A stretch of 22,864 nt of DNA, from contig JAIWWG010000184.1 of the NCBI GenBank assembly GCA_025435555.1, positions 1 through 22,864 on the forward strand, in the 5' to 3' direction. This stretch comes from Chytriomyces cf. hyalinus JEL632 (taxonomy: Eukaryota > Chytridiomycota > Chytridiomycetes > Chytridiales > Chytriomycetaceae). The position numbers and the translations under genes were made by a program. Every line of letters begins with the position of its first letter. Position 1 is the first letter of the stretch. The notes under the pieces are model-generated. The model was not told where the DNA came from. It did no database searches and saw nothing but the letters and a program-made list of their open reading frames with translations. This document shows, piece after piece, positions 5,720 to 22,864 of the stretch.

Positions 5720-5739
5720 ATGAAAAAAGTCTGTTTGAA

Positions 5740-7624
5740 ATGTCCACGGTCATCAAAAGCAGCAGCACCAACACCAAGCACCCGTTCGTGATGCTGGAGC
5801 TCAACATCGCAAAGCGCCTCAAGGGGGACGGCTCGCTGTCCCGTGGCGGGATGCGGGTCGGCCTCTCTGAAGAGCCTTGGGGTGGGAGGGAATCCGAACC
5901 AGTTTGGGTTCTCCACCATCCAAATGCAGTGCACCACGTGCACCAAACGTTGCAGACTCAACGCAGCGCTGAAGGCAGGAGGGTCGGCCTCTGCGGACCT
6001 GTACGCAGAGTGGGAGAAGGCTTTCGGTAAGCTGGTCCCAGTCACTTCCACCACAGGCACAGCAGCAAAGCGCCGCCGCCAGAACTCCGAAGCAGACACT
6101 GCCACTGCAGTCTCTACTTCCACACCCAGTGCTTCCCAGAGTCGTCTGATCCAACAGACCCTCTCATTTGCTGCAGCCACCGCTGGCCGCTCTGTGGATC
6201 AGCCACCAGCAGGCTCAGCAGGCTCAGCAAGCACAGCAACAACCTCAACAACCAATCTCACCACCCCAGCTGGTTCCGCAGGCCTTCCACAGAGCGAATT
6301 CAGCTTCATGGCACCCGCGCCAGCCATGCAGACCACCGCTGCAGCCTCCGAAATGTCGCCATCAGTGATTTCGAATGCATTTCCACCCCCTGCTGTGCCT
6401 GCCACAGCTGTCAACTGGCAGCAGCGTGCAGAGGCAGCAGAGGCCGCTACAGCTTCCCTTCAGACGCAGCTGCAGTCCCTGATTGCGCTGCTGGCCCAGC
6501 TGGTCACCCAGATGCAGCAGGGCTCAGTTGGTGTGGGTAAGTCATCAGGCACAGCAAATGAGTGTCAGCCAACTGTGGCGCAGCCATTGAGCACAGCAAC
6601 AGCCCTCTTGGCTTCCATCAGTGCTTCAACTGCTCCCACGCTCGCAGCACCAACTCCCAATGGAGCCCAGTCCACCCACGTGCAGCCCCATGTGCGTACC
6701 TCTCGAAAAAGCGGTCGTGGAGGTCGCACTGGACCTGGAGGGCGTATTGTCCCAGGTGCTGCCCCTGCCTCAACAACAACTGTTTCTGTACCCGTTGCTG
6801 TTGAAAACACTTCCACACAGGTTGTTGAAGCCGCCTGGTCCACTGTTGCACGTAATGGAACGCGTCGTGCCCCTCCACCATCTTGCGAATCTCGTCAACG
6901 CGCGCCGCAAACTCAGCAGCAGTATGATGAAAAAACACACCGCATGCGTCAAAAGAAGGCATTACAGATGGCGAAAGCTGTCCCTGAACCGAAAAAGTTT
7001 GCAGTGATCCGTGTTGAACTCCACAGCAGTCGTCAGTTGCGCGGATGTTCCTTCCGGGACCGGAAACATTTGATCGATGCGTTTGTGGGACAGATGGGGG
7101 TTCGCCACAATGTGGCTCTTACCTCATCTATTGGTAACTCCATCATTGAGCTGTATTGTCCGACTGATGTTGTTCTGGAAGTGGTGCGAGTTCTTAGGGA
7201 GCGTGGCCAACAAGTCCTCCTTGCAGCCTTCAACCCACTCATATCCGACATTGACGGAAATCGCCTTGACTCCACCCAGACAGAAAAAGCTGCCAAGCGC
7301 CTCGCGTTTTTGTGCAAAGCCGCACGTACTGTCAATCTCCGTGCTGCCATCCTTGCCGGTGCCTCTCAGCAACTCAAGGAAGCCACGCAGAAAGTGTTTG
7401 AAACCATCCGAGGCTCCCCATCCGACTCCCTTCTTGCACCCCCACGCCCCCACCGTAGCGCGTTTGCGAAATTTGCTGCCCCAGACACACTGTCGCTAAC
7501 TGATTTTGTGACTCTCGACCCAGTTCCGGAATCTACTGAGTTTGTCGATAGTCAAGACGATGTTGCCATGTCTGTGTCCAATCTGGATCTTGGTCCCGCG
7601 GCTGACGCCGCCGACCAAGAATGA
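5740..7624 (+). CDS. Element A ORF1, copy 2 (one frameshift near the start)
   Basis: The start ATG at 5740 is the same as in copy 3. The first 29 residues agree, then an extra G in the run at 5822-5826 shifts the frame before the zinc-ribbon-like motif. The correct frame resumes immediately downstream, is open by 5843, and continues to the TGA at 7622-7624. Apart from this the protein matches copy 3: zinc-ribbon-like N-terminus, Ala/Gln/Ser/Thr-rich middle with a predicted coiled coil, Arg/Gly-rich basic patch and RRM-like C-terminal region. The stop overlaps the ORF2 start as ATGA. The indel sits in a homopolymer at the edge of the error-prone copy 1 region, so it may not be real. Confidence 0.85.
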
Positions 7625-10600
7625 TCAAAATCGCATTTTCGAATCTCAACGGGCTGTCTGGCAAAGCCGAAGAAGTCCTGAGATTCAAGTCTGCGCAATC
7701 TGTTGACCTTTCTTTAATGGTGGAAACGTGGCTCTCCCCAACATCCTCCATTCCTTTTCGACCACACCTATTTAATATCACAAGTACAAACACGGAGGCA
7801 ATTGCGGGAGGTCGGCGCAATTTTGGCGGCATTTTGGCGTTCTCAACTGCAACTCTCTCCCCCCAATTCCGAGTTATCTATGAAGATCCCTTGGGGTTCT
7901 ATTGCGCAATGCGCATCTCTGATCTTATCCTCATCACTGCCTACATCCCCCCCTCTGCTGACAATCGGGTAATCGGGGACATGCTTCAAAAAGCGGAAAC
8001 GTTATCTGAAGGCTTTACGTTGCGTTGTCTTTTGGTTGGCGATCTGAACGCACGGATGACGGATGCTGGTGATTCACTCACAAACACACGTGGAACGTAT
8101 ATGCAGCAGGAACTGTTCAACTCTGGACTTGCGCTTCAAATCCCGGAGTCTGGGAAATGGACGTCGTGGGCTGGTGGTGGTCGAGGGATTCCGGATGTTG
8201 TACTCTCGAGCTTCCCAGTCTCTAACCTCACAGTTCATGAAGGCGAGTCACTTGGAGGTTCGGACCATCGGCCGCTGACATTTTCTGTGCCACTGGATGT
8301 CGAAACCAAGCCCAAGTCTTTTGCGCGCTGGAATGTTCGTCGCCTCACAACTGCCAAATACCATCAGCGTTTTGCTGAGGAGCTGGAGTCCACGCAGCAG
8401 GAGATCATGGATCAACTGGAATTGCTGCGAACACGCTTGGAAAGCCCTGCTGTGGGATACGTTGCGGGTGTATCACAGTGCGATGCACACACCGTGGCAC
8501 CTGCAGTAGGCGCCAACCCTCCGGGAAGTACTTCCCATGCTTCTCTTGATCCTGTTACCCACACTGCAGATTGCCCCAGAGCCACCACTCACATGTCTGA
8601 CAGTCCTTCTCAGTCCGCTGGTCCATCCCACTCCCATCCACGTTCTGTCGATGCTCCCAACCCATCTACGCAGCAGGACATGTGCTTATGCCTGGAATTG
8701 CTGCGAACGAGCTTTGAAAGCCCTGCTGTGGGGTACATCGCGGGTGCATCACAGTGCGATGCACACACCGCGGTACCTGCAGTAGGCGCTCCCCTCCCGG
8801 GAAGTACTTCTCGCTCCTCGCTCTTGAACAATACTCACACACCAAACCGTGCTAGAACTCAAGAGTTGATCAACGAGGCCTGGGAACACTTCCTGTCATG
8901 GGTCCGAAATGCTGCGTCAAAGTCAATTGGTGTCCTCCAAGTCTCTGACCATCTGCCATCGGAGTTTTGGACTGATGAGCTTGAACAAAGTCGGGACAAC
9001 GTGCAGCAAGAACTTGCGAACGTGCAACAGGAAATCGAGCGTGGCCAGTTGTCTCGTCTCGAAATCAAACGCCTTGCTTCCGAACTGACCAACACTCAGC
9101 GTGCTTACCGGGCGGATCTGACCACACGCAAGCGCGTGCTCTTCGAAGATGCTGTCGATAAGCTCACAGTCCCACAAAACATGTCCTCGTTCATGCGCAT
9201 GGTAAAAGGAGCCAAGTCGCGAAAAGACCGCACTGTCTGCAAACTGGACCCGGCGAAAATCAATGAACACGCTGCCCATTTTCGAACTACCTTTGGAGCA
9301 CCTCCGACTGGACATCCCCAACCTGGACCCCCTGCGCTTGAGGAAATCCAGTCGCGTCCAACTCAGGAAGTCTTCAACCCGGATGCGATCATGTCTGCGA
9401 TTGCTGGACTCCCACTCGGAAAGGCTACTGGATCCGATGGAATTCCTGCTGAACTCATCAAAGCCGGTGGCGATCTCATGGCTGACGTTCTCAGTGTTTT
9501 CCTGCCCATGGTCCATGCTGCTGCAACTATTCCATCTGACTGGAGGAAGGCGCTCATTGTGCCAGTCTTCAAGAAGAAGGGATCTGATCAGGACATTGCA
9601 AACTACCGACCTATTGCACTGACAAGTACGATACGACGACTCTACGAGCGGCTGCTTGTTCCTGAACTTGGACCCGTAATGCAACAACTCGATGACTTTC
9701 AAGGTGGCTTCAGACCCGGTCGGTCCTCGCTCGATCAAGCCATGGTTCTCCACGAAACCCTGAACACCAATGAACATGCTTCGACTATCCTGCTGGACAT
9801 CAAAGCGGCATATGACGAAGTCGATCGAAGGGTTCTTTGGCAAATGCTCACACAAGTCTTCGGCCTGGACGAATTCATGCTTGCACGGCTCCAGGATCTT
9901 TTCGATCACAACTCGTGCTGTCTGGTGGTGGCTGGCGTGATTAGTGATCCGATTGACAACGAACGAGGTCTTTTGCAGGGTGCTACTCTGTCCCCGATTT
10001 TGTTCAACTGTCACATCCATGGTCTCTCAATTCGGCTACGTGCTCCTGGAATCCCGCGAATTCGAATCAACGGTATCCATCTCAATAACCTCCTGTTTGC
10101 AGACGATACGTCCTTGGTAGCTGCAAATCAACATGATCTCGCAGTCCTGCTCCGAACGTGTGAGGAATGGTCCAACACTGTCGGCATCCGGTTCTCGCCA
10201 TCCAAGTGCATCTATCTCGGTCCTGTTCCAGCACTACGTGATGTACCTCTCAAGCTCTACAACGTGGACCTTCCATCCCAGCAATGTGCCCCGTATCTCG
10301 GCATCCCTTTTGGCCAACACGGAATCAACTGGGCTCTGCTGGCAAAGGAACGAACTTCAAAAGCGCGTGGTGTCATTGTGGCGCTGGCATCGGTAGGTAT
10401 GAATGCAATGGGCTGGGCTCCTGCAGCTTCTGTTACTATCTACAGGAGTTTCATTCGGCCGGTCCTTGAATATGGCATTGCTCTCAAGCTCCCATCCGCG
10501 TCCACGCTCAAGTTGTACGAGTCGGTCCAACGTCTTGCACTACGGACTCTCACATCAACACCCCGCAACACGTCCACTGCCGCTCTCCACAAGCTGCTGC

Positions 10601-11442
10601 AAGTCGAACCATTCAAACACCGTGCTACCGAGCTCAATCTCATGTGGTCCTCCCGATTGCATAACTCAACTGATCGTTCTATCCCGGCTGTTCGTTTCTG
10701 GCGCGGCGCTCTGCTTGGTGCTGACAAACCATTTCAGGAATGTCTTCCCCGCCTTGCTCGCTCCAACCCACTTGTGACTCATGTGGATGCTAAATGGATT
10801 GATTTTCGACAGCAACCACTGGTTCCCCCACCTCCAGCTGAAGTTCCGTTCCGGTACCCTCCGAAGCCAAAACAAGCGCTGTCTGACAATGCTCGCAAGA
10901 AGCTGCGCAAGGAATCCATCGTCAACCTGGACAACAACCTGGACACCATTGCTGGCGCAATCCAAGTCGAAACCAAAGACCCAGTCCGGCCGTATCTGAC
11001 TGCCTGCAAGGGAATTGACCGCAAGACACGCAACAACATCCTTCGCTGGACTCTTGGTGCCGTCACCCGACACGAACCGTGCCTCAAGTGCAACGACGTA
11101 CTGACCCGATCCCATGCTGCTGACTGTTCTGGTGCCACTGCTCTCCTGCGCATCAACTGGGACACGCTTGCACCTCCTGCCGGCCGAATGACCTGGCTTG
11201 ATACGATCCTGAATGAAGTCCGGAATACACCGCCCTCCGAAATCGACACGTACACCGAAGTCTCTTCTGCCGTAGCTCTCATCTACACCGAATGTCGCCA
11301 CCTCCAACAGCAAGCCAATGGCTACTGGGCCGAGCCAGATGCACCCGCACGACCACTGCCGCCTCGAAGACCGCGAAATCGCATACCTCAACCCGGGGGA
11401 GCCCCGCTTGGGCGACCACGGCAAAACCCGGAGCCTGGATAA
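7621..11442 (+). CDS. Element A ORF2 protein: APE endonuclease and reverse transcriptase, copy 2
   Basis: This is an intact 1,273-residue ORF2, apparently identical to that of copy 3. It nicks the target and copies element RNA by target-primed reverse transcription. The endonuclease shows NLNG (8-11), ETW (35-37), GDLNA (140-144) and GGSDHRPL (212-219). The RT shows the catalytic Asp of LDIKAAYD (D726), QGATLSPILFN, and FADD (D828, D829). A C-terminal CX2CX7HX3C finger starts at residue 1154. No RNase H domain is visible. The start is the ATG of the ATGA overlap with ORF1, and the stop is TAA at 11440-11442. Insertion of every copy into TTAGGG repeats implies telomere-specific cleavage by this endonuclease. 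Confidence 0.96.
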   Translation: MIKIAFSNLNGLSGKAEEVLRFKSAQSVDLSLMVETWLSPTSSIPFRPHLFNITSTNTEAIAGGRRNFGGILAFSTATLSPQFRVIYEDPLGFYCAMRISDLILITAYIPPSADNRVIGDMLQKAETLSEGFTLRCLLVGDLNARMTDAGDSLTNTRGTYMQQELFNSGLALQIPESGKWTSWAGGGRGIPDVVLSSFPVSNLTVHEGESLGGSDHRPLTFSVPLDVETKPKSFARWNVRRLTTAKYHQRFAEELESTQQEIMDQLELLRTRLESPAVGYVAGVSQCDAHTVAPAVGANPPGSTSHASLDPVTHTADCPRATTHMSDSPSQSAGPSHSHPRSVDAPNPSTQQDMCLCLELLRTSFESPAVGYIAGASQCDAHTAVPAVGAPLPGSTSRSSLLNNTHTPNRARTQELINEAWEHFLSWVRNAASKSIGVLQVSDHLPSEFWTDELEQSRDNVQQELANVQQEIERGQLSRLEIKRLASELTNTQRAYRADLTTRKRVLFEDAVDKLTVPQNMSSFMRMVKGAKSRKDRTVCKLDPAKINEHAAHFRTTFGAPPTGHPQPGPPALEEIQSRPTQEVFNPDAIMSAIAGLPLGKATGSDGIPAELIKAGGDLMADVLSVFLPMVHAAATIPSDWRKALIVPVFKKKGSDQDIANYRPIALTSTIRRLYERLLVPELGPVMQQLDDFQGGFRPGRSSLDQAMVLHETLNTNEHASTILLDIKAAYDEVDRRVLWQMLTQVFGLDEFMLARLQDLFDHNSCCLVVAGVISDPIDNERGLLQGATLSPILFNCHIHGLSIRLRAPGIPRIRINGIHLNNLLFADDTSLVAANQHDLAVLLRTCEEWSNTVGIRFSPSKCIYLGPVPALRDVPLKLYNVDLPSQQCAPYLGIPFGQHGINWALLAKERTSKARGVIVALASVGMNAMGWAPAASVTIYRSFIRPVLEYGIALKLPSASTLKLYESVQRLALRTLTSTPRNTSTAALHKLLQVEPFKHRATELNLMWSSRLHNSTDRSIPAVRFWRGALLGADKPFQECLPRLARSNPLVTHVDAKWIDFRQQPLVPPPPAEVPFRYPPKPKQALSDNARKKLRKESIVNLDNNLDTIAGAIQVETKDPVRPYLTACKGIDRKTRNNILRWTLGAVTRHEPCLKCNDVLTRSHAADCSGATALLRINWDTLAPPAGRMTWLDTILNEVRNTPPSEIDTYTEVSSAVALIYTECRHLQQQANGYWAEPDAPARPLPPRRPRNRIPQPGGAPLGRPRQNPEPG
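8392..8810 (+). repeat. Internal direct duplication within ORF2 linker (copy 2)
   Basis: Two similar segments of about 143 nt, at 8392-8534 and 8668-8810, lie 276 nt (92 codons) apart in the same frame. Both encode LELLRT..ESPAVGY.AG.SQCDAHT. They fall between the endonuclease and RT domains. The same pair is present at 2475-2617/2751-2893 in copy 1 and at 14307-14449/14583-14725 in copy 3. Confidence 0.9.
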
Positions 11443-11637
11443 TCAACCGTCAAGCCCGAACTGACCATACATATCTTATTACCTTTACCGATCATCTGTT
11501 TTCTTAACATTTCCGCACTTTACTTCTGATTCTTTGGAGTTCTTGAACTTTTTTTGAGTGATTTTTGCTATCTTTCAACCCCGCACTTGTGTTACTGTGT
11601 AACTTGATTAAAAGAAACTGAAAACGTTAGGGTTAGG
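11443..11637 (+). other. Element A 3' UTR, copy 2
   Basis: This T-rich non-coding tail of 195 nt has no ORF. It contains a 5-bp inverted repeat, GTTAC-TGT-GTAAC, and ATTAAA exactly 13 nt before the final GTTAGGGTTAGG (11626-11637). There is no poly(A) tail in the DNA copy. It is probably the region the RT recognises, with the telomeric 12 nt able to pair with the C-rich telomeric strand. Confidence 0.8.
11626..11637 (+). repeat. Two-unit telomeric junction, A2/A3
   Basis: GTTAGGGTTAGG lies between the ACTGAAAAC end of copy 2 and the seven A that open copy 3. Confidence 0.95.
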
Positions 11638-11655
11638 AAAAAAAGTCTGTTTGAA
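11638..11655 (+). promoter_or_regulatory. Very short 5' leader of element A with A-run
   Basis: Only 18 nt separate the telomeric junction from the ORF1 ATG, beginning with seven A and then GTCTGTTTGAA. Element B starts with a similar A7 plus CTTTCTCGAAAT. No TATA box or known initiator can be assigned. Any promoter must lie in this leader, inside ORF1, or in the upstream neighbouring copy. Confidence 0.55.
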
Positions 11656-13539
11656 ATGTCCACGGTCATCAAAAGCAGCAGCACCAACACCAAGCACCCG
11701 TTCGTGATGCTGGAGCTCAACATCGCAAAGCGCCTCAAGGGGACGGCTCGCTGTCCCGTGGCGGGATGCGGGTCGGCCTCTCTGAAGAGCCTTGGGGTGG
11801 GAGGGAATCCGAACCAGTTTGGGTTCTCCACCATCCAAATGCAGTGCACCACGTGCACCAAACGTTGCAGACTCAACGCAGCGCTGAAGGCAGGAGGGTC
11901 GGCCTCTGCGGACCTGTACGCAGAGTGGGAGAAGGCTTTCGGTAAGCTGGTCCCAGTCACTTCCACCACAGGCACAGCAGCAAAGCGCCGCCGCCAGAAC
12001 TCCGAAGCAGACACTGCCACTGCAGTCTCTACTTCCACACCCAGTGCTTCCCAGAGTCGTCTGATCCAACAGACCCTCTCATTTGCTGCAGCCACCGCTG
12101 GCCGCTCTGTGGATCAGCCACCAGCAGGCTCAGCAGGCTCAGCAAGCACAGCAACAACCTCAACAACCAATCTCACCACCCCAGCTGGTTCCGCAGGCCT
12201 TCCACAGAGCGAATTCAGCTTCATGGCACCCGCGCCAGCCATGCAGACCACCGCTGCAGCCTCCGAAATGTCGCCATCAGTGATTTCGAATGCATTTCCA
12301 CCCCCTGCTGTGCCTGCCACAGCTGTCAACTGGCAGCAGCGTGCAGAGGCAGCAGAGGCCGCTACAGCTTCCCTTCAGACGCAGCTGCAGTCCCTGATTG
12401 CGCTGCTGGCCCAGCTGGTCACCCAGATGCAGCAGGGCTCAGTTGGTGTGGGTAAGTCATCAGGCACAGCAAATGAGTGTCAGCCAACTGTGGCGCAGCC
12501 ATTGAGCACAGCAACAGCCCTCTTGGCTTCCATCAGTGCTTCAACTGCTCCCACGCTCGCAGCACCAACTCCCAATGGAGCCCAGTCCACCCACGTGCAG
12601 CCCCATGTGCGTACCTCTCGAAAAAGCGGTCGTGGAGGTCGCACTGGACCTGGAGGGCGTATTGTCCCAGGTGCTGCCCCTGCCTCAACAACAACTGTTT
12701 CTGTACCCGTTGCTGTTGAAAACACTTCCACACAGGTTGTTGAAGCCGCCTGGTCCACTGTTGCACGTAATGGAACGCGTCGTGCCCCTCCACCATCTTG
12801 CGAATCTCGTCAACGCGCGCCGCAAACTCAGCAGCAGTATGATGAAAAAACACACCGCATGCGTCAAAAGAAGGCATTACAGATGGCGAAAGCTGTCCCT
12901 GAACCGAAAAAGTTTGCAGTGATCCGTGTTGAACTCCACAGCAGTCGTCAGTTGCGCGGATGTTCCTTCCGGGACCGGAAACATTTGATCGATGCGTTTG
13001 TGGGACAGATGGGGGTTCGCCACAATGTGGCTCTTACCTCATCTATTGGTAACTCCATCATTGAGCTGTATTGTCCGACTGATGTTGTTCTGGAAGTGGT
13101 GCGAGTTCTTAGGGAGCGTGGCCAACAAGTCCTCCTTGCAGCCTTCAACCCACTCATATCCGACATTGACGGAAATCGCCTTGACTCCACCCAGACAGAA
13201 AAAGCTGCCAAGCGCCTCGCGTTTTTGTGCAAAGCCGCACGTACTGTCAATCTCCGTGCTGCCATCCTTGCCGGTGCCTCTCAGCAACTCAAGGAAGCCA
13301 CGCAGAAAGTGTTTGAAACCATCCGAGGCTCCCCATCCGACTCCCTTCTTGCACCCCCACGCCCCCACCGTAGCGCGTTTGCGAAATTTGCTGCCCCAGA
13401 CACACTGTCGCTAACTGATTTTGTGACTCTCGACCCAGTTCCGGAATCTACTGAGTTTGTCGATAGTCAAGACGATGTTGCCATGTCTGTGTCCAATCTG
13501 GATCTTGGTCCCGCGGCTGACGCCGCCGACCAAGAATGA
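11656..13539 (+). CDS. Element A ORF1 protein (zinc-ribbon-like and RRM-like), copy 3
   Basis: This 627-residue ORF1 protein probably binds element RNA and forms the RNP that delivers it to telomeres. Residues 33-71 hold a zinc-ribbon-like cysteine set: CPVAGC, then about 25 residues containing GNPNQFG, then CTTCTKRC. Residues ~75-225 are rich in Ala, Ser, Thr and Gln. Residues ~226-260 form a probable amphipathic helix or coiled coil starting WQQRAEAAEAA. Residues 319-336 are a basic RTSRKSGRGG patch. Residues ~418-500 look like an RRM-type fold, with SSIGNSIIELYC (462-473) as a beta-strand segment. The ATG at 11656 is the first possible start after the telomeric junction. TGA at 13537-13539 overlaps the ORF2 ATG. 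Domain names are inferred by eye from motifs; LINE ORF1 identity rests on position and composition. Confidence 0.92.
   Translation: MSTVIKSSSTNTKHPFVMLELNIAKRLKGTARCPVAGCGSASLKSLGVGGNPNQFGFSTIQMQCTTCTKRCRLNAALKAGGSASADLYAEWEKAFGKLVPVTSTTGTAAKRRRQNSEADTATAVSTSTPSASQSRLIQQTLSFAAATAGRSVDQPPAGSAGSASTATTSTTNLTTPAGSAGLPQSEFSFMAPAPAMQTTAAASEMSPSVISNAFPPPAVPATAVNWQQRAEAAEAATASLQTQLQSLIALLAQLVTQMQQGSVGVGKSSGTANECQPTVAQPLSTATALLASISASTAPTLAAPTPNGAQSTHVQPHVRTSRKSGRGGRTGPGGRIVPGAAPASTTTVSVPVAVENTSTQVVEAAWSTVARNGTRRAPPPSCESRQRAPQTQQQYDEKTHRMRQKKALQMAKAVPEPKKFAVIRVELHSSRQLRGCSFRDRKHLIDAFVGQMGVRHNVALTSSIGNSIIELYCPTDVVLEVVRVLRERGQQVLLAAFNPLISDIDGNRLDSTQTEKAAKRLAFLCKAARTVNLRAAILAGASQQLKEATQKVFETIRGSPSDSLLAPPRPHRSAFAKFAAPDTLSLTDFVTLDPVPESTEFVDSQDDVAMSVSNLDLGPAADAADQE
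13536..13539 (+). promoter_or_regulatory. ATGA stop/start overlap coupling ORF1 to ORF2
   Basis: The ORF1 stop TGA and the ORF2 start ATG share bases as ATGA. The same arrangement is at 7621-7624 and 1710-1713. Stop-start coupling of this kind is established for some bicistronic LINE RNAs, for example UAAUG in SART1. Its use here is inferred. Confidence 0.75.
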
Positions 13540-16500
13540 TCAAAATCGCATTTTCGAATCTCAACGGGCTGTCTGGCAAAGCCGAAGAAGTCCTGAGATT
13601 CAAGTCTGCGCAATCTGTTGACCTTTCTTTAATGGTGGAAACGTGGCTCTCCCCAACATCCTCCATTCCTTTTCGACCACACCTATTTAATATCACAAGT
13701 ACAAACACGGAGGCAATTGCGGGAGGTCGGCGCAATTTTGGCGGCATTTTGGCGTTCTCAACTGCAACTCTCTCCCCCCAATTCCGAGTTATCTATGAAG
13801 ATCCCTTGGGGTTCTATTGCGCAATGCGCATCTCTGATCTTATCCTCATCACTGCCTACATCCCCCCCTCTGCTGACAATCGGGTAATCGGGGACATGCT
13901 TCAAAAAGCGGAAACGTTATCTGAAGGCTTTACGTTGCGTTGTCTTTTGGTTGGCGATCTGAACGCACGGATGACGGATGCTGGTGATTCACTCACAAAC
14001 ACACGTGGAACGTATATGCAGCAGGAACTGTTCAACTCTGGACTTGCGCTTCAAATCCCGGAGTCTGGGAAATGGACGTCGTGGGCTGGTGGTGGTCGAG
14101 GGATTCCGGATGTTGTACTCTCGAGCTTCCCAGTCTCTAACCTCACAGTTCATGAAGGCGAGTCACTTGGAGGTTCGGACCATCGGCCGCTGACATTTTC
14201 TGTGCCACTGGATGTCGAAACCAAGCCCAAGTCTTTTGCGCGCTGGAATGTTCGTCGCCTCACAACTGCCAAATACCATCAGCGTTTTGCTGAGGAGCTG
14301 GAGTCCACGCAGCAGGAGATCATGGATCAACTGGAATTGCTGCGAACACGCTTGGAAAGCCCTGCTGTGGGATACGTTGCGGGTGTATCACAGTGCGATG
14401 CACACACCGTGGCACCTGCAGTAGGCGCCAACCCTCCGGGAAGTACTTCCCATGCTTCTCTTGATCCTGTTACCCACACTGCAGATTGCCCCAGAGCCAC
14501 CACTCACATGTCTGACAGTCCTTCTCAGTCCGCTGGTCCATCCCACTCCCATCCACGTTCTGTCGATGCTCCCAACCCATCTACGCAGCAGGACATGTGC
14601 TTATGCCTGGAATTGCTGCGAACGAGCTTTGAAAGCCCTGCTGTGGGGTACATCGCGGGTGCATCACAGTGCGATGCACACACCGCGGTACCTGCAGTAG
14701 GCGCTCCCCTCCCGGGAAGTACTTCTCGCTCCTCGCTCTTGAACAATACTCACACACCAAACCGTGCTAGAACTCAAGAGTTGATCAACGAGGCCTGGGA
14801 ACACTTCCTGTCATGGGTCCGAAATGCTGCGTCAAAGTCAATTGGTGTCCTCCAAGTCTCTGACCATCTGCCATCGGAGTTTTGGACTGATGAGCTTGAA
14901 CAAAGTCGGGACAACGTGCAGCAAGAACTTGCGAACGTGCAACAGGAAATCGAGCGTGGCCAGTTGTCTCGTCTCGAAATCAAACGCCTTGCTTCCGAAC
15001 TGACCAACACTCAGCGTGCTTACCGGGCGGATCTGACCACACGCAAGCGCGTGCTCTTCGAAGATGCTGTCGATAAGCTCACAGTCCCACAAAACATGTC
15101 CTCGTTCATGCGCATGGTAAAAGGAGCCAAGTCGCGAAAAGACCGCACTGTCTGCAAACTGGACCCGGCGAAAATCAATGAACACGCTGCCCATTTTCGA
15201 ACTACCTTTGGAGCACCTCCGACTGGACATCCCCAACCTGGACCCCCTGCGCTTGAGGAAATCCAGTCGCGTCCAACTCAGGAAGTCTTCAACCCGGATG
15301 CGATCATGTCTGCGATTGCTGGACTCCCACTCGGAAAGGCTACTGGATCCGATGGAATTCCTGCTGAACTCATCAAAGCCGGTGGCGATCTCATGGCTGA
15401 CGTTCTCAGTGTTTTCCTGCCCATGGTCCATGCTGCTGCAACTATTCCATCTGACTGGAGGAAGGCGCTCATTGTGCCAGTCTTCAAGAAGAAGGGATCT
15501 GATCAGGACATTGCAAACTACCGACCTATTGCACTGACAAGTACGATACGACGACTCTACGAGCGGCTGCTTGTTCCTGAACTTGGACCCGTAATGCAAC
15601 AACTCGATGACTTTCAAGGTGGCTTCAGACCCGGTCGGTCCTCGCTCGATCAAGCCATGGTTCTCCACGAAACCCTGAACACCAATGAACATGCTTCGAC
15701 TATCCTGCTGGACATCAAAGCGGCATATGACGAAGTCGATCGAAGGGTTCTTTGGCAAATGCTCACACAAGTCTTCGGCCTGGACGAATTCATGCTTGCA
15801 CGGCTCCAGGATCTTTTCGATCACAACTCGTGCTGTCTGGTGGTGGCTGGCGTGATTAGTGATCCGATTGACAACGAACGAGGTCTTTTGCAGGGTGCTA
15901 CTCTGTCCCCGATTTTGTTCAACTGTCACATCCATGGTCTCTCAATTCGGCTACGTGCTCCTGGAATCCCGCGAATTCGAATCAACGGTATCCATCTCAA
16001 TAACCTCCTGTTTGCAGACGATACGTCCTTGGTAGCTGCAAATCAACATGATCTCGCAGTCCTGCTCCGAACGTGTGAGGAATGGTCCAACACTGTCGGC
16101 ATCCGGTTCTCGCCATCCAAGTGCATCTATCTCGGTCCTGTTCCAGCACTACGTGATGTACCTCTCAAGCTCTACAACGTGGACCTTCCATCCCAGCAAT
16201 GTGCCCCGTATCTCGGCATCCCTTTTGGCCAACACGGAATCAACTGGGCTCTGCTGGCAAAGGAACGAACTTCAAAAGCGCGTGGTGTCATTGTGGCGCT
16301 GGCATCGGTAGGTATGAATGCAATGGGCTGGGCTCCTGCAGCTTCTGTTACTATCTACAGGAGTTTCATTCGGCCGGTCCTTGAATATGGCATTGCTCTC
16401 AAGCTCCCATCCGCGTCCACGCTCAAGTTGTACGAGTCGGTCCAACGTCTTGCACTACGGACTCTCACATCAACACCCCGCAACACGTCCACTGCCGCTC

Positions 16501-17357
16501 TCCACAAGCTGCTGCAAGTCGAACCATTCAAACACCGTGCTACCGAGCTCAATCTCATGTGGTCCTCCCGATTGCATAACTCAACTGATCGTTCTATCCC
16601 GGCTGTTCGTTTCTGGCGCGGCGCTCTGCTTGGTGCTGACAAACCATTTCAGGAATGTCTTCCCCGCCTTGCTCGCTCCAACCCACTTGTGACTCATGTG
16701 GATGCTAAATGGATTGATTTTCGACAGCAACCACTGGTTCCCCCACCTCCAGCTGAAGTTCCGTTCCGGTACCCTCCGAAGCCAAAACAAGCGCTGTCTG
16801 ACAATGCTCGCAAGAAGCTGCGCAAGGAATCCATCGTCAACCTGGACAACAACCTGGACACCATTGCTGGCGCAATCCAAGTCGAAACCAAAGACCCAGT
16901 CCGGCCGTATCTGACTGCCTGCAAGGGAATTGACCGCAAGACACGCAACAACATCCTTCGCTGGACTCTTGGTGCCGTCACCCGACACGAACCGTGCCTC
17001 AAGTGCAACGACGTACTGACCCGATCCCATGCTGCTGACTGTTCTGGTGCCACTGCTCTCCTGCGCATCAACTGGGACACGCTTGCACCTCCTGCCGGCC
17101 GAATGACCTGGCTTGATACGATCCTGAATGAAGTCCGGAATACACCGCCCTCCGAAATCGACACGTACACCGAAGTCTCTTCTGCCGTAGCTCTCATCTA
17201 CACCGAATGTCGCCACCTCCAACAGCAAGCCAATGGCTACTGGGCCGAGCCAGATGCACCCGCACGACCACTGCCGCCTCGAAGACCGCGAAATCGCATA
17301 CCTCAACCCGGGGGAGCCCCGCTTGGGCGACCACGGCAAAACCCGGAGCCTGGATAA
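13536..17357 (+). CDS. Element A ORF2 protein: APE endonuclease and reverse transcriptase, copy 3
   Basis: This is the complete 1,273-residue LINE polyprotein. The APE-type endonuclease (~1-230) has NLNG 8-11, ETW 35-37, GDLNA 140-144, PDVVLSS 191-197 and GGSDHRPL 212-219. The linker (~230-590) contains a duplicated ESPAVGY segment and a Gln/Glu-rich helical stretch. The RT (~600-930) has GKATGSDGIPAELI, VPVFKKKG, NYRPIALTS, GGFRPGRSS, LDIKAAYD (D726), QGATLSPILFN, LLFADDTSLV (D828, D829) and PYLGIPFG. The C-terminal CX2CX7HX3C finger comprises C1154, C1157, H1165 and C1169. The tail is basic and proline-rich. No RNase H motif is seen. All catalytic acids of both enzymes are present, so it looks active. 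Translation probably depends on re-initiation at the ATGA overlap. Confidence 0.97.
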   Translation: MIKIAFSNLNGLSGKAEEVLRFKSAQSVDLSLMVETWLSPTSSIPFRPHLFNITSTNTEAIAGGRRNFGGILAFSTATLSPQFRVIYEDPLGFYCAMRISDLILITAYIPPSADNRVIGDMLQKAETLSEGFTLRCLLVGDLNARMTDAGDSLTNTRGTYMQQELFNSGLALQIPESGKWTSWAGGGRGIPDVVLSSFPVSNLTVHEGESLGGSDHRPLTFSVPLDVETKPKSFARWNVRRLTTAKYHQRFAEELESTQQEIMDQLELLRTRLESPAVGYVAGVSQCDAHTVAPAVGANPPGSTSHASLDPVTHTADCPRATTHMSDSPSQSAGPSHSHPRSVDAPNPSTQQDMCLCLELLRTSFESPAVGYIAGASQCDAHTAVPAVGAPLPGSTSRSSLLNNTHTPNRARTQELINEAWEHFLSWVRNAASKSIGVLQVSDHLPSEFWTDELEQSRDNVQQELANVQQEIERGQLSRLEIKRLASELTNTQRAYRADLTTRKRVLFEDAVDKLTVPQNMSSFMRMVKGAKSRKDRTVCKLDPAKINEHAAHFRTTFGAPPTGHPQPGPPALEEIQSRPTQEVFNPDAIMSAIAGLPLGKATGSDGIPAELIKAGGDLMADVLSVFLPMVHAAATIPSDWRKALIVPVFKKKGSDQDIANYRPIALTSTIRRLYERLLVPELGPVMQQLDDFQGGFRPGRSSLDQAMVLHETLNTNEHASTILLDIKAAYDEVDRRVLWQMLTQVFGLDEFMLARLQDLFDHNSCCLVVAGVISDPIDNERGLLQGATLSPILFNCHIHGLSIRLRAPGIPRIRINGIHLNNLLFADDTSLVAANQHDLAVLLRTCEEWSNTVGIRFSPSKCIYLGPVPALRDVPLKLYNVDLPSQQCAPYLGIPFGQHGINWALLAKERTSKARGVIVALASVGMNAMGWAPAASVTIYRSFIRPVLEYGIALKLPSASTLKLYESVQRLALRTLTSTPRNTSTAALHKLLQVEPFKHRATELNLMWSSRLHNSTDRSIPAVRFWRGALLGADKPFQECLPRLARSNPLVTHVDAKWIDFRQQPLVPPPPAEVPFRYPPKPKQALSDNARKKLRKESIVNLDNNLDTIAGAIQVETKDPVRPYLTACKGIDRKTRNNILRWTLGAVTRHEPCLKCNDVLTRSHAADCSGATALLRINWDTLAPPAGRMTWLDTILNEVRNTPPSEIDTYTEVSSAVALIYTECRHLQQQANGYWAEPDAPARPLPPRRPRNRIPQPGGAPLGRPRQNPEPG
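14307..14725 (+). repeat. Internal direct duplication within ORF2 linker (copy 3)
   Basis: Segments 14307-14449 and 14583-14725 are similar direct repeats, offset by 276 nt and in the same reading frame. They encode ESPAVGYVAG and ESPAVGYIAG versions of one module in the endonuclease-RT linker. Scattered differences show the duplication is older than the separation of the A copies, all of which carry it. Confidence 0.9.
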
Positions 17358-17552
17358 TCAACCGTCAAGCCCGAACTGACCATACATATCTTATTACCTT
17401 TACCGATCATCTGTTTTCTTAACATTTCCGCACTTTACTTCTGATTCTTTGGAGTTCTTGAACTTTTTTTGAGTGATTTTTGCTATCTTTCAACCCCGCA
17501 CTTGTGTTACTGTGTAACTTGATTAAAAGAAACTGAAAACGTTAGGGTTAGG
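17358..17552 (+). other. Element A 3' UTR and telomeric 3' end, copy 3
   Basis: This is the 195-nt T-rich tail after the ORF2 stop. The inverted repeat GTTAC (17506-17510), loop TGT, GTAAC (17514-17518) could form a small hairpin. ATTAAA at 17522-17527 is followed by a 13-nt spacer ending ACTGAAAAC and then GTTAGGGTTAGG from 17541. The last ~31 nt are nearly the same in element B, which makes this the best candidate for the RT recognition and priming site. Confidence 0.8.
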
Positions 17553-17553
17553 G
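17541..17553 (+). repeat. Telomeric junction A3/B (13 nt)
   Basis: GTTAGGGTTAGGG carries one G more than the other internal junctions. The extra G may belong to the target site or to the 5' end of B. Confidence 0.9.
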
Positions 17554-17554
17554 A

Positions 17555-17992
17555 AAAAAACTTTCTCGAAATTGTGTTGTTGTTGTCCAAGCAGCAACCC
17601 GCCAACCTGCAACCACCAACACCAACAGCGCACCGCCAACACTCTCTGCAACTGGCCACCGGCCACCATCCTTCAGTATTAGCTCTCCCGCAGAGATCTA
17701 CAGTGCTGCAGAACTCGAGCTCTGGAATCTCGCAAAAGGCCGCCTCGTTTGCCCACACTGTGGCAACAGAAAGATCAACGCAGGCGCTGCTGGCAACCCC
17801 AACTCTCTGGGTGCAACCAAACGGTCCCTTGCGTGCAACAAGAACCCTCAGTGCTCCAGGCCCCGGCTTCTGGAATTCTGTCTTGGTCTTGATCACGATC
17901 CAGACTCACCTACACACGACATCTTCACCAAGGCGCAAGCTGTCAAGCAGATCTATACAGATCTGAAATCAGCGCGAAAAAGCGGTCTAGGA
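17555..17992 (+). other. In-frame ATG-less N-terminal extension of element B ORF1
   Basis: The frame of the B ORF is open upstream of its first ATG (17993) all the way to the TAG within the telomeric junction (17549-17551), giving 146 extra codons. They encode SFSISSPAEIYSAAELELW followed by a zinc-ribbon-like motif. This motif has CPHC (Cys codons at 17750 and 17759), GNPNSLG, and CNKNPQC (Cys codons at 17834 and 17852). It lines up with CPVAGC...GNPNQFG...CTTC of element A ORF1. The region is therefore almost certainly translated. Initiation must use a non-AUG codon, or an ATG has been lost by mutation or by an indel near the 5' end. Confidence 0.8.
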
Positions 17993-19636
17993 ATGGCCAG
18001 CAAGACTGCTGGCAAGGGTGCTGCATCCAAGTTGGTGCAGCCAATTCTCTCTTTTTCAAGTGGCAAAGCAGCAACAACAGCAGCAACTCCATCAGTTCAA
18101 CTCGGATCCTCCCGAAACCTCGTCCAAAGCATAGAGACCACTCCCGCTATGCAGCGGGACTGGTCTCTTGCCTCCTCCTCCTCGTCCTCCTCCTCCCAAA
18201 TCGATCCTGTGCAGTCTGAGTCCCCTCTCACTCCCAAGCAGGCCCAGAAACGAGCGCGCGAGTCTGACAGCCCACCCCAGGCACATCAGAACCCCCCGAC
18301 GGCCCCTCTAGACGATGCTGCTGTCGAAAACAACGAATTAAATTGCGATCTGAGTGATCTGGCTGCTGTCTTTGATGGCAGTCAGCACAAAGCCCAGATG
18401 ATCATGAGCTTTATTCAACGAATCATCAACCAATCGAACCAGCAGCACGGCGAGGCCATCCAGGTGCTACTACGAGACAGGGAATCGAAAATCGCGGAGC
18501 AGGAGCACCAGATTGAGCAGCAGCGCGTCGAAATTCAGGAACTTAGGCAAATCATCGAACATGGAACACCAGCAGCATCGAATGGACCCCCAGCAGTGAC
18601 AGCACCGGCGGCATGGCAGGTCCAGCAGCGTGGTGCTGCACCTTCTCGCAGTGGTAAGCGTGTTGGCCGTGGTGGAGCAGTGGTGGGATCACTGCGGAGC
18701 ACACCTGCAACCAATGGTCCAGCATCATATGCCGCTGCAGTTCAGCAGACGTCCACACCAAACCCAGTTCGTCAGTTCCCATCGTATGCCGAAAAGCTCA
18801 AGCAAGCCAAGCAAGAGCAGACAGCAGCAGCTCAAGCAGCCTCCAATCTGGAACTACTGGCTGATCTCAAGAAGCAACAAGAACGTCGTACCAACCCACC
18901 CATTCGTCGGGAGCCAGTCGAGTACAAGTCCTTCATTATCGAGAACCCACTTGGGAACAGGACACGTTTTGTCCAGAACCCACTGCGGCGCATTCGAAGC
19001 ATCCTTGCTGACGAGTACAAAGTCCCTCGCACTATCCGTGAGATCAGCTACATTGGTGCAGCCAAGTCCACCCTCGAGATTTTCATCAAGGTCTCAGACT
19101 ATGATGATGCAATCACCAAGCTCTCAACACCCCTCGACCCAAGTCTTCCGTCCATCTTTGTGACATCCAACCTTGCCCAAGTACCAGACCACCGAGTGTT
19201 TGGCCTCCCCCCCCACCTTGCTCCCAGTGAACAGCAGATGGAGGAGGCCCTCGTAAGGCGCCGTGCTGTCATGCTGGAACGTGCCTTGCGTGAACGTGTC
19301 CCAGTCATGTGCAGCGTGGCTACATCCAATGTCGACAGCTACTTGAAGAACCGAATCTACACAGCAGCCCTTATCCTATTTGAATCAGGATCCCTCAAGC
19401 CATTCCTATTCCCAAATGACATCTCCCGTACAAATCTCGATGCACTCAAAGCCGCAGCAGACAATTTGATCAGAGACGGAGAACTCCGCCCCCTCGAAGC
19501 CTCAGCGGAGCAAGTTAATCTAGTTGCAAAGCGATGTGAACTCCCCAAAGAGGAAGCAAAGCAGCAAGTCAAGAACTTTATTCGTGCCTTTCCACTATCA
19601 GCTCTGGCAGAGTGTCAAGCTGAAGCAGATTCATGA
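17993..19636 (+). CDS. Element B ORF1-like protein (coiled coil plus RRM-like)
   Basis: These are 547 residues from the first in-frame ATG. The real protein probably begins upstream and includes the zinc-ribbon-like extension at 17555-17992. Features in order: a Ser-rich run (~60-70); PKQAQKRARE, a possible nuclear-localisation sequence; a predicted coiled coil from ~158 to 191 (VLLRDRESKIAEQEHQI); a basic RSGKRVGRGG patch; an RRM-like region from about 311 (YKSFIIENPLGN) containing ISYIGAAKSTLEIFI (351-365); and a helical C-terminal domain. The order zinc ribbon, coiled coil, RG patch, RRM-like core matches element A ORF1, although sequence identity is low. The likely role is binding its own RNA within an RNP that also recruits the A ORF2 enzyme; this is inferred. 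The stop is TGA at 19634-19636. Confidence 0.88.
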   Translation: MASKTAGKGAASKLVQPILSFSSGKAATTAATPSVQLGSSRNLVQSIETTPAMQRDWSLASSSSSSSSQIDPVQSESPLTPKQAQKRARESDSPPQAHQNPPTAPLDDAAVENNELNCDLSDLAAVFDGSQHKAQMIMSFIQRIINQSNQQHGEAIQVLLRDRESKIAEQEHQIEQQRVEIQELRQIIEHGTPAASNGPPAVTAPAAWQVQQRGAAPSRSGKRVGRGGAVVGSLRSTPATNGPASYAAAVQQTSTPNPVRQFPSYAEKLKQAKQEQTAAAQAASNLELLADLKKQQERRTNPPIRREPVEYKSFIIENPLGNRTRFVQNPLRRIRSILADEYKVPRTIREISYIGAAKSTLEIFIKVSDYDDAITKLSTPLDPSLPSIFVTSNLAQVPDHRVFGLPPHLAPSEQQMEEALVRRRAVMLERALRERVPVMCSVATSNVDSYLKNRIYTAALILFESGSLKPFLFPNDISRTNLDALKAAADNLIRDGELRPLEASAEQVNLVAKRCELPKEEAKQQVKNFIRAFPLSALAECQAEADS

Positions 19637-19896
19637 TAACCTCGGATTTCCTTTCCTTTCTTTTCTCTTATCTTTTGGTCTTTTCTTTTGATTACGACCA
19701 GGCCTGACTTTCCTCTCTCGCCTGGGATATCCCCCACTTGTCTTCGCTGTTCCCACCCGTCTACCTCAGAAAACTCTTAGTCCATTCATTCTTCCTGAAT
19801 ATCTCCTAGTTTACGCGTTTTTCCTTGTCGCAAAGCACGTCTGATCCCCCTCGGGGCTGTATTGGAATAAAACACACTGAAAACGTTAGGGTTAGG
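19637..19896 (+). other. Element B 3' UTR and telomeric 3' end
   Basis: This 260-nt non-coding tail starts with a long pyrimidine-rich tract (about 19645-19690). It also contains a small CCCC-CTC-GGGG inverted repeat at 19846-19856. AATAAA at 19866-19871 precedes a 13-nt spacer ending ACTGAAAAC and GTTAGGGTTAGG at 19885-19896. Only this last ~31-nt module resembles the element A tail. Confidence 0.8.
19885..19896 (+). repeat. Telomeric junction B/A4
   Basis: GTTAGGGTTAGG joins element B directly to the truncated A copy 4, which begins AGTCTTCGG. Confidence 0.95.
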
Positions 19897-19897
19897 A

Positions 19898-21484
19898 GTC
19901 TTCGGCCTGGACGAATTCATGCTTGCACGGCTCCAGGATCTTTTCGATCACAACTCGTGCTGTCTGGTGGTGGCTGGCGTGATTAGTGATCCGATTGACA
20001 ACGAACGAGGTCTTTTGCAGGGTGCTACTCTGTCCCCGATTTTGTTCAACTGTCACATCCATGGTCTCTCAATTCGGCTACGTGCTCCTGGAATCCCGCG
20101 AATTCGAATCAACGGTATCCATCTCAATAACCTCCTGTTTGCAGACGATACGTCCTTGGTAGCTGCAAATCAACATGATCTCGCAGTCCTGCTCCGAACG
20201 TGTGAGGAATGGTCCAACACTGTCGGCATCCGGTTCTCGCCATCCAAGTGCATCTATCTCGGTCCTGTTCCAGCACTACGTGATGTACCTCTCAAGCTCT
20301 ACAACGTGGACCTTCCATCCCAGCAATGTGCCCCGTATCTCGGCATCCCTTTTGGCCAACACGGAATCAACTGGGCTCTGCTGGCAAAGGAACGAACTTC
20401 AAAAGCGCGTGGTGTCATTGTGGCGCTGGCATCGGTAGGTATGAATGCAATGGGCTGGGCTCCTGCAGCTTCTGTTACTATCTACAGGAGTTTCATTCGG
20501 CCGGTCCTTGAATATGGCATTGCTCTCAAGCTCCCATCCGCGTCCACGCTCAAGTTGTACGAGTCGGTCCAACGTCTTGCACTACGGACTCTCACATCAA
20601 CACCCCGCAACACGTCCACTGCCGCTCTCCACAAGCTGCTGCAAGTCGAACCATTCAAACACCGTGCTACCGAGCTCAATCTCATGTGGTCCTCCCGATT
20701 GCATAACTCAACTGATCGTTCTATCCCGGCTGTTCGTTTCTGGCGCGGCGCTCTGCTTGGTGCTGACAAACCATTTCAGGAATGTCTTCCCCGCCTTGCT
20801 CGCTCCAACCCACTTGTGACTCATGTGGATGCTAAATGGATTGATTTTCGACAGCAACCACTGGTTCCCCCACCTCCAGCTGAAGTTCCGTTCCGGTACC
20901 CTCCGAAGCCAAAACAAGCGCTGTCTGACAATGCTCGCAAGAAGCTGCGCAAGGAATCCATCGTCAACCTGGACAACAACCTGGACACCATTGCTGGCGC
21001 AATCCAAGTCGAAACCAAAGACCCAGTCCGGCCGTATCTGACTGCCTGCAAGGGAATTGACCGCAAGACACGCAACAACATCCTTCGCTGGACTCTTGGT
21101 GCCGTCACCCGACACGAACCGTGCCTCAAGTGCAACGACGTACTGACCCGATCCCATGCTGCTGACTGTTCTGGTGCCACTGCTCTCCTGCGCATCAACT
21201 GGGACACGCTTGCACCTCCTGCCGGCCGAATGACCTGGCTTGATACGATCCTGAATGAAGTCCGGAATACACCGCCCTCCGAAATCGACACGTACACCGA
21301 AGTCTCTTCTGCCGTAGCTCTCATCTACACCGAATGTCGCCACCTCCAACAGCAAGCCAATGGCTACTGGGCCGAGCCAGATGCACCCGCACGACCACTG
21401 CCGCCTCGAAGACCGCGAAATCGCATACCTCAACCCGGGGGAGCCCCGCTTGGGCGACCACGGCAAAACCCGGAGCCTGGATAA
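19898..21484 (+). pseudogene. Element A ORF2 C-terminal fragment, copy 4
   Basis: This corresponds to residues 746-1273 of ORF2 and is in frame from the second base of the fragment. It keeps QGATLSPILFN, FADD, the thumb and the CX2CX7HX3C finger. It lacks the endonuclease, the fingers and the first catalytic Asp (D726 of LDIKAAYD), so no polymerase can be made from it. The frame is intact to the TAA at 21482-21484, which implies recent insertion. An internal ATG at 19919 has no known role. Confidence 0.92.
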
Positions 21485-21679
21485 TCAACCGTCAAGCCCG
21501 AACTGACCATACATATCTTATTACCTTTACCGATCATCTGTTTTCTTAACATTTCCGCACTTTACTTCTGATTCTTTGGAGTTCTTGAACTTTTTTTGAG
21601 TGATTTTTGCTATCTTTCAACCCCGCACTTGTGTTACTGTGTAACTTGATTAAAAGAAACTGAAAACGTTAGGGTTAGG
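21485..21679 (+). other. Element A 3' UTR, copy 4
   Basis: This has the same length as the tails of copies 2 and 3. It includes the GTTAC-TGT-GTAAC inverted repeat, ATTAAA and the final GTTAGGGTTAGG at 21668-21679. Confidence 0.8.
21668..21679 (+). repeat. Two-unit telomeric junction, A4/B2
   Basis: GTTAGGGTTAGG is followed by a single unexplained C and then the truncated element B sequence. Confidence 0.95.
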
Positions 21680-21680
21680 C

Positions 21681-21986
21681 GTCGACAGCTACTTGAAGAA
21701 CCGAATCTACACAGCAGCCCTTATCCTATTTGAATCAGGATCCCTCAAGCCATTCCTATTCCCAAATGACATCTCCCGTACAAATCTCGATGCACTCAAA
21801 GCCGCAGCAGACAATTTGATCAGAGACGGAGAACTCCGCCCCCTCGAAGCCTCAGCGGAGCAAGTTAATCTAGTTGCAAAGCGATGTGAACTCCCCAAAG
21901 ACGAAGCAAAGCAGCAAGTCAAGAACTTTATTCGTGCCTTTCCACTATCAGCTCTGGCAGAGTGTCAAGCTGAAGCAGATTCATGA
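21681..21986 (+). pseudogene. Element B ORF1 C-terminal fragment
   Basis: These are 102 codons, including the TGA at 21984-21986, from the C-terminal helical domain of the element B ORF1 protein, beginning VDSYLKNRIYTAAL. It has no ATG near its start. There is one Glu-to-Asp change (KEEA to KDEA) relative to the longer copy. It is a dead 5'-truncation product with no expected function. Confidence 0.9.
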
Positions 21987-22246
21987 TAACCTCGGATTTC
22001 CTTTCCTTTCTTTTCTCTTATCTTTTGGTCTTTTCTTTTGATTACGACCAGGCCTGACTTTCCTCTCTCGCCTGGGATATCCCCCACTTGTCTTCGCTGT
22101 TCCCACCCGTCTACCTCAGAAAACTCTTAGTCCATTCATTCTTCCTGAATATCTCCTAGTTTACGCGTTTTTCCTTGTCGCAAAGCACGTCTGATCCCCC
22201 TCGGGGCTGTATTGGAATAAAACACACTGAAAACGTTAGGGTTAGG
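21987..22246 (+). other. Element B 3' UTR, copy 2
   Basis: This has the same 260-nt length as the tail of the first B copy. It contains the pyrimidine tract, the CCCC/GGGG inverted repeat, AATAAA and the 13-nt spacer, and ends in the telomeric tail that begins at 22235. Confidence 0.8.
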
Positions 22247-22265
22247 GTTAGGGTTAGGGTTAGGG
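22236..22265 (+). repeat. Internal telomeric tract (TTAGGG)5
   Basis: Five perfect TTAGGG units follow the 3' end of the last B copy. This is the only internal junction with more than two units. It abuts an 18-nt T-run on its distal side. Confidence 0.97.
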
Positions 22266-22283
22266 TTTTTTTTTTTTTTTTTT
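22266..22283 (-). repeat. Poly(A) tail (T18 on the + strand)
   Basis: There are eighteen consecutive T on the + strand after TTAGGG. The first two could belong to a following TTAGGG unit, so the tail is 16-18 A. Confidence 0.95.
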
Positions 22284-22289
22284 GGAGGT

Positions 22290-22295
22290 TTTATT
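22290..22295 (-). promoter_or_regulatory. AATAAA poly(A) signal of the captured transcript
   Basis: AATAAA on the - strand is followed by ACCTCC and then the A18 run. The 6-nt gap is short for a canonical signal, but it supports a processed transcript origin. Confidence 0.7.
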
Positions 22296-22435
22296 CACCC
22301 GGTAACCCAGGGTGTTTGGTAATTTTGACCCAAATAAGTTAAAGTACCAAATCTTTAACCTAAAAAGTGCTAAGTAGAAATCTGAAGAAGGTAGACTAAA
22401 AAGTTGACCCTGAAACGTGTTGGCGACTTGGTGGT

Positions 22436-22811: not shown

Positions 22812-22864
22812 GGGTTAGGGTTAGGGTTAGGGTTAGGGTTAGGGTTAGGGTTAGGGTTAGGGTT
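22812..22864 (+). repeat. Terminal telomeric array, (TTAGGG)8 plus partial units
   Basis: GGG at 22812-22814 is followed by eight perfect TTAGGG units and a final TT at the window end. The G-rich strand runs 5' to 3' toward the right, so this side is the chromosome end or leads into it. Confidence 0.97.

Follow-up and report, generated by a model that had tools for sequence, protein, structure and literature searches.

How does a retroelement that lacks a reverse transcriptase (RT) come to stand, at full length, in an array of autonomous retroelements with telomere-like junctions? The question is raised by element B in contig C94 (JAIWWG010000184.1) of Chytriomyces cf. hyalinus JEL632; its whole analysed stretch of 22,864 nt is called the window here. 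The window holds long interspersed nuclear element (LINE) units arranged head to tail, with GTTAGGGTTAGG after each, and two B copies, one full and one 5'-truncated, lie in the same orientation among copies of the autonomous LINE A, as originally predicted. A search of the genome (37.78 Mb in 242 contigs, in which match counts are lower bounds) indicates that B is quite probably a long-lived, non-autonomous LINE with only the first open reading frame (ORF1), moved in trans by an ORF2 protein of the A/D/F group of LINEs, most likely one of F type.

B measures ~2.3 kb and has its own 5' end, a single ORF and a 3' untranslated region (UTR), with both ends shared between copies and no endonuclease (EN) or RT domain found by Pfam, which bears out the original prediction. 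Unlike the non-coding body of a short interspersed nuclear element with a LINE tail, the B body codes, with a conserved ORF of at least 547 codons. The B 3' UTR gives 12 match rows at 11 places, in B copies only; with C50, which lacks the 3' UTR, these make at least 12 B loci, a count that leaves out an inverted B fragment beside an old copy in C229. ORF2 is absent from all 11 copies with a 3' UTR, where the gap between the end of the ORF match and the UTR, 3-44 nt, is too short to hold it. A six-frame search of the genome returned 29 matches to the B protein, all of them B or F copies. Thus neither a B element with its own ORF2 among the 11 copies nor an intron-bearing host gene resembling B among the 29 protein matches was seen, the two findings that had been named as fatal to an ORF1-only retroelement.

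B is a mobile family. Five copies are full-length or nearly so (window, C199, C210, C10 and C203), all with open ORFs; some 15 nt are missing from the start of the C199 copy. No difference separates the window and C199 copies over 547 ORF codons, 122 tested leader codons and the 248-nt 3' UTR, and since their sites are unrelated, B has moved recently. Target site duplications (TSDs) flank 5/5 interstitial copies tested, the 12 bases 3' of ...CTGAAAAC recurring on the 5' side; the remaining B loci lie in arrays, at contig edges, or in cut or rearranged DNA. The duplications match at 12/12 positions for GTTTTGGTTAGG (C199), GTTAGGAATATG (C210) and GTTAAGGTTAGC (C203) and at 11/12 for GTTAGGGAGCGG (C180) and GTTTGAGTTAGT (C166), a level reached by 0 of 3,036 to 4,500 other 26-base windows per locus. 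Because interstitial copies carry these 12-bp TSDs, GTTAGGGTTAGG between the window units is best read as the duplicated target, with B ending at ...ACTGAAAAC. The C229 locus is of a different kind: at C229:101586-103068 an old B copy (69% nucleotide identity) adjoins an inverted, younger B fragment (B 376-831, 96.7%), an arrangement that we read as a local rearrangement.

All 11 B targets begin with GTT, and perfect telomeric repeats occur at only two of them, the other nine being degenerate; further copies exist genome-wide, mostly away from perfect telomeric repeats. These sites bear on the possibility, entertained in the original prediction, of a part for B in telomere maintenance, the role that HeT-A has in flies. 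The two B copies near the telomere in the window and a target made of telomeric repeat sequence fit such a role. It is nevertheless very unlikely, given a Telomerase_RBD domain over cut-off encoded at C172:12449-12857 (a telomerase reverse transcriptase, TERT, domain), a contig end in TTAGGG repeats, the degenerate sites at most B 3' ends, and tested insertions that are internal and carry TSDs. The relation of B to its host is better read as parasitism or commensalism than as telomere maintenance.

The ORF1-only design is old. A copy in C229 aligns with B across the ORF end, the stop and the 3' UTR at a synonymous divergence (dS) of 0.91 and a nonsynonymous divergence (dN) of 0.30, with dN/dS of 0.33 over 254 codons. 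Because this copy keeps the same ORF-to-3' UTR junction, the B lineage has gone without ORF2 for a long time, its protein being kept meanwhile. The two stops that the copy carries indicate decay after insertion, and the ratio is therefore, if anything, too high. Past selection on ORF1 is recorded also in C50, which is broken by a 17-nt insertion (dN/dS 0.26 over 339 ORF codons and 0.19 over 122 codons upstream), and in the C203 leader (0.24). Selection on the youngest copies is ambiguous, with six ratios against the window copy of 0.43 (C95), 0.52 (C10), 0.55 (C180), 0.56 (C10 chimera), 0.65 (C210) and 0.97 (C203 ORF), on 7 to 36 changes. These young-copy ratios, and an ATGA overlap at the B ORF1 stop like that at the A ORF1/ORF2 junction, would suit a recent internal-deletion derivative of an autonomous element whose ORF is a passenger. 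We regard this origin as highly improbable: C229 shows the same junction at its much greater divergence and low ratio, and no autonomous relative closer than 35% identity came to light.

Tail and target are common to B and three families of autonomous LINE, A, D and F. The A ORF2 protein contains Exo_endo_phos_2 (7.3e-9) and RVT_1 (1.9e-25) domains in Pfam, has LINE-1 ORF2 and R2 proteins as its nearest solved structures by sequence, and is encoded by intact frames. D forms a 5452-bp unit with RT frames of 1221 codons, and F, of about 6.7 kb, has an endonuclease domain and RT frames of 1230 codons; their RTs are 38% (D) and 40% (F) identical to that of A. Stop-free F ORF2 frames of 1230 codons occur at four places (C92, C137 twice, and C10).

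Alignment of B with the last 1.5 kb of A, D and F is limited to the last 21-38 nt. With the target included, the B 3' end matches A at 90.6% over 32 nt, D at 96.9% over 32 nt and F at 94.7% over 38 nt. The near-match of ~31 nt between B and A that had been noted from the window, and the dissimilarity of the remaining 3' UTR, are both confirmed, but 12 of the 32 nt are target site and D and F match better. Scores of 30-nt tails with the target left out are 22 for B-F, 17 for B-D, 15 for A-B, 14 for A-F, 13 for D-F and 11 for A-D; shuffles did as well in 0/2000 trials for the first four pairs, 4/2000 for D-F and 30/2000 for A-D. Conservation of this tail among otherwise unalignable UTRs is what recognition by the RT might be expected to leave. 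A stem-loop in the shared tail found no support in five folds of 70-71 nt (z of 0.81, 1.37, -1.15, -0.37 and 1.49).

The tail pattern, allowing at most two mismatches, has 80 matches in the genome against one for a reversed control. A census drawing on 74 of the 131 RT match rows, the 11 B ends and all 80 tails assigns 34 tails to A, 18 to D, seven to B and six to F, with four ambiguous and 11 unassigned; the B ends at C210, C180, C166 and C229 exceed two mismatches and lie outside the 80. Among the 17 contigs with at least two tails, nine carry a uniform 12-mer and eight a mixture. The uniform 12-mer is non-canonical in five contigs (C10 7/7, C203 3/3, C140 3/3, C137 2/2 and C198 2/2). One variant is common to A, B and F units in C10 and another to B and F in C203, while three successive tails in C5 (A, A, F) share a single variant. 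Uniformity across families suggests that arrays can grow by repeated insertion at junctions, with different families using one site.

The ORF1 proteins point to F. BLAST aligns the B protein with F ORF1 at 35% identity over 410 positions (E 9e-54), versus an E of 0.58 for A ORF1 against B in tblastn. Profile comparison of B/F with A/D recovers only the N-terminal stretch, 5' of the first ATG (P 4.9e-6, probability 86%), and with A alone the probability is 30%. B is nearer to F than to A by these comparisons. The proposed retention of the A ORF1 domain order is borne out only in part, by the shared N-terminal stretch; the clear homologue is F ORF1. No D match to the B protein appeared in the genome search or in the D 5' piece. 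An F/B chimera lies in C10 (56504 to about 58154): its first 58 nt, two of them target, match the beginning of an F subfamily exactly, and B sequence follows, from about position 740-748 on. The pattern is the one expected if the RT switched templates, from B RNA to F RNA, but it could also be a product of DNA recombination.

The candidate donors of ORF2 would rank F first, D second and A third. F takes first place because of ORF1 homology, the tail score, the chimera and its direct adjacency to B in C10, C203 and C95. Mobilisation by D is doubtful. D matches B at 92% over the 26-nt 5' end as well as at the 3' end, and the variant tail AATAAAGACACACTGAAAAC of the C210 and C166 B copies equals the D tail over an identical 20 nt; yet D offers no match to the B protein and no chimera was seen with it, and its tails mostly mark perfect telomeric sites (14/18), whereas B sites are mostly not of that kind. 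Supply of ORF2 by A, the window neighbour favoured originally, is unlikely. B has A copies on both sides, with the same target, its end resembles that of A over 32 nt, and A holds most of the assigned tails along with intact ORF2 frames, but the tails of F and D are closer to that of B, the B protein resembles that of F, the sole chimera is with F, and several B copies stand alone or beside F. What stands of the proposal of ORF2 in trans is an ORF1-only, mobile element that would have to use an RT in trans and has kept its own ORF1 protein, with F fitting the donor role better than A.

Several observations weigh against the F-type donor or the long-lived design. A and D share target and tail with B, D shares its 5' end, and the window B sits among A copies. 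The F/B chimera is a single event for which DNA recombination is possible, and at 35% protein identity F itself is not the parent of B. The six young-copy ratios do not demonstrate present selection, and C50 and C229, which gave low ratios, are themselves broken copies. Single-sequence tail RNA folds no better than shuffles, and the mixed 12-mers in 8/17 contigs mean that junction re-insertion is not the sole process shaping the arrays. Trans-mobilisation of B by a partner RT nonetheless remains the probable explanation of the shared tail, shared target and chimera taken together.

Under trans-mobilisation by an F-type partner, B RNA would carry an ORF1 gene encoding a long helix, an RRM-like part and an N-terminal zinc-ribbon-like part, apparently without an AUG start. 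It would end in the short tail AATAAA(A/G)..ACTGAAAAC, the putative recognition end of A, D and F. An ORF2 protein from this set of LINEs, most likely F-type, would nick a 12-bp site that resembles telomeric repeat, either GTTAGGGTTAGG or a degenerate form beginning GTT. Reverse transcription would then be primed at the nick on the B tail, perhaps by GUU pairing, with the tail recognised by the RT and B ORF1 protein possibly binding B RNA in cis, and would leave a 12-bp TSD. As each insertion would yield two target copies, later insertions of A, B, D and F into the junctions would build head-to-tail mixed arrays.

ORF1 translation in B likely begins at a non-AUG codon. ATG-free leaders extend over 440 nt in B, 664 nt in D and 967-976 nt in F, where about 5, 8 and 13-14 ATGs are expected; shuffles preserving mononucleotide content only were free of ATG in 18/2000 (B), 0/2000 (D) and 0/2000 (F) cases. 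The ORF1 frame is open 5' of the first ATG, and that stretch shows conservation between B and F as well as constraint within B. Two leader ATGs in the C203 copy speak against such a start, and a spliced leader or intron is an alternative that we do not prefer. The in-frame leader region is called zinc-ribbon-like from its CxxC pattern, no family search naming it, and the long predicted helix is probably a coiled coil. Pfam reports no family over cut-off for the ORF1 proteins of A, B and F or for the 5' piece of D, and a PDB sequence search with the B/F ORF1 profile gave a single match (E 0.95). With the weak B model (predicted local distance difference test, pLDDT, 55), Foldseek returned 0/921 matches at E ≤0.001; the top matches are mostly RNA recognition motif (RRM) proteins, with a best E of 0.076.

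Table 1. Positions of element B, its parts and its neighbours in the window.
Feature	Position	Strand	Basis or remark
Broken A copy	to 5707		ORFs broken
Autonomous LINE A, full copy	5720..11625	+	sequence
Autonomous LINE A, full copy, directly 5' of B	11638..17540	+	ORF1 11656-13539, ORF2 13536-17357 with EN and RT
12-bp telomere-like target GTTAGGGTTAGG, B 5' side	17541..17552	+	same 12-bp unit is the TSD at interstitial B copies
Full-length B (ORF1-only LINE)	17553..19884	+	five full-length or nearly full-length copies share both ends
B 5'-terminal 26 nt, 92% identical to D	17554..17579	+	blastn
In-frame region 5' of first ATG, conserved with F ORF1 (47-54% identity)	17666..17989	+	alignment; dN/dS 0.19, 0.24
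B ORF from first ATG, 547 aa	17993..19636	+	frame open upstream, 694 codons in all
Long predicted helix, residues 267-337 of the 694-codon frame	18350..18562	+	AlphaFold2 model, mean pLDDT 55
RRM-like fold, weakly supported, residues 458-525	18923..19126	+	predicted structure and Foldseek
B 3' UTR (248 nt)	19637..19884	+	last ~22 nt (AATAAA..ACTGAAAAC) are the tail common to A, D and F
12-bp target GTTAGGGTTAGG, B 3' side	19885..19896	+	sequence
A copy, 5'-truncated, between both B copies	19897..21667	+
Second B copy, 5'-truncated, orientation as first B	21680..22234	+

The first A copy (window 1-5719) has broken ORFs versus the intact later A copies, which reflects either decay or an assembly error near the contig start. 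A and D units begin with a run of A whose length varies with the copy, from about 5 to 8 nt (e.g. 11638-11644). In C66, C48 and C78, A and D units form long head-to-tail arrays at nearly constant intervals of about 5915 and 5452; a 2669-bp unit in C66, considered as a further family, proved to be a 5'-truncated A. A 126-bp TTAGGG tract lies ~6 kb inside C111 (C111:986975-987100) and is followed by an A copy starting at A position 83. At C209:192000-193588 an A ORF2 match ends at 193538 and a TTAGGG run begins at 193547, which might mark the addition of a telomere within an element.

Beyond the second B copy comes a run of TTAGGG, then at 22265-22812 a poly(A) element in antisense, and further TTAGGG closes the contig. 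This poly(A) LINE, G (- strand), is antisense to A and B, in the order TTAGGG repeats, T run and G 3' end, and its window copy is 5'-truncated and followed by TTAGGG. G has 24 match rows genome-wide, 12/24 of them <1 kb from a contig end and several after telomere-like sequence, and four copies (C111, C76, C182 and C204) adjoin RT matches 28-35% identical to A.

The original prediction knew of no described telomeric example of an ORF1-only element, but HeT-A is one and, more loosely, MoTeR2 another, on the available excerpts of the reports (PMC4700185, PMC5537684; PMC7367193). HeT-A of Drosophila telomeres has one ORF (Gag) and no RT, relies on TART and has a two-ORF relative, TAHRE; it resembles B as a telomere-associated ORF1-only LINE using the RT of another element, and further in having that two-ORF relative in the same genome, head-to-tail arrays and signs of negative selection on its ORF (excerpts of PMC4700185, PMC5537684). 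Unlike B, HeT-A as described there attaches to the chromosome end, its poly(A) facing the centromere, and its host has no telomerase (PMC4700185, PMC5537684). B occupies internal 12-bp sites with TSDs in a genome encoding a TERT domain, and in the window its 3' end points towards the telomere with no poly(A) at the junction. Internal insertion with TSDs and the TERT domain, set against the published features of HeT-A, mark B as not a HeT-A member.

HAL1 (half-L1) of mammals is not known to be telomere-associated. It is ORF1-only like B, a non-autonomous LINE encoding ORF1p alone and derived from L1 in the excerpted account (PMC5753468), and B differs in being one of a group whose targets are telomere-like and whose tail is fixed and not poly(A). 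MoTeR2 of Magnaporthe oryzae is, like B, a telomeric non-autonomous partner sharing ends with an autonomous LINE, and MoTeR1 and MoTeR2, like A and B, form mixed head-to-tail arrays separated by TTAGGG (excerpts of PMC7367193). MoTeR2 has 860 bp and 77 bp in common with MoTeR1, besides a stretch of 786 bp that is unrelated, and is described as likely to be defective; unlike in B, its 5' end faces the chromosome end, and MoTeR1 has a putative restriction-like endonuclease (same excerpts, PMC7367193). B lacks such long terminal identity with a partner: what it has in common with the ends of A, D or F is no more than 26 nt and 32-38 nt.

SART and TRAS are both autonomous. In Bombyx mori they are APE-endonuclease LINEs inside telomeric repeats, in opposite orientations, according to the portions available (PMC7265360, PMC5537684); A/B/D/F and the poly(A) element G likewise lie in two opposite orientations. 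SART1 differs from B in needing a long poly(A) tail for accurate priming (excerpt of PMC7265360), and the available excerpts of PMC7265360 and PMC5537684 make no mention of an ORF1-only partner of SART or TRAS. B has the ORF1-only design in common with HeT-A and HAL1, and insertion inside repeats in common with SART and TRAS. Among the titles and abstract openings listed in searches of open-licence PMC literature, none described this element, which is not proof of absence.

B would be the second ORF1-only telomeric LINE in kind after HeT-A, whose origin is called unclear in the excerpted literature (PMC5537684), and apparently an independent one. New in B are internal insertion with TSDs and a telomerase gene in the genome, where intact candidate donors A, D and F accompany it. 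A long shot is a two-component LINE ecology in which an ORF1-only lineage keeps a non-AUG-started protein to ~1 synonymous change per site, draws on the ORF2 of several LINEs with which it shares sites and in return might supply an ORF1 protein that helps to target their ribonucleoproteins to telomere-like sites, as HeT-A Gag does for TART, here alongside telomerase. B lets one ask why an RT-less element keeps ORF1, whether for cis RNA packaging or for targeting, and how little of a 3' tail suffices to recruit the RT of a foreign LINE.

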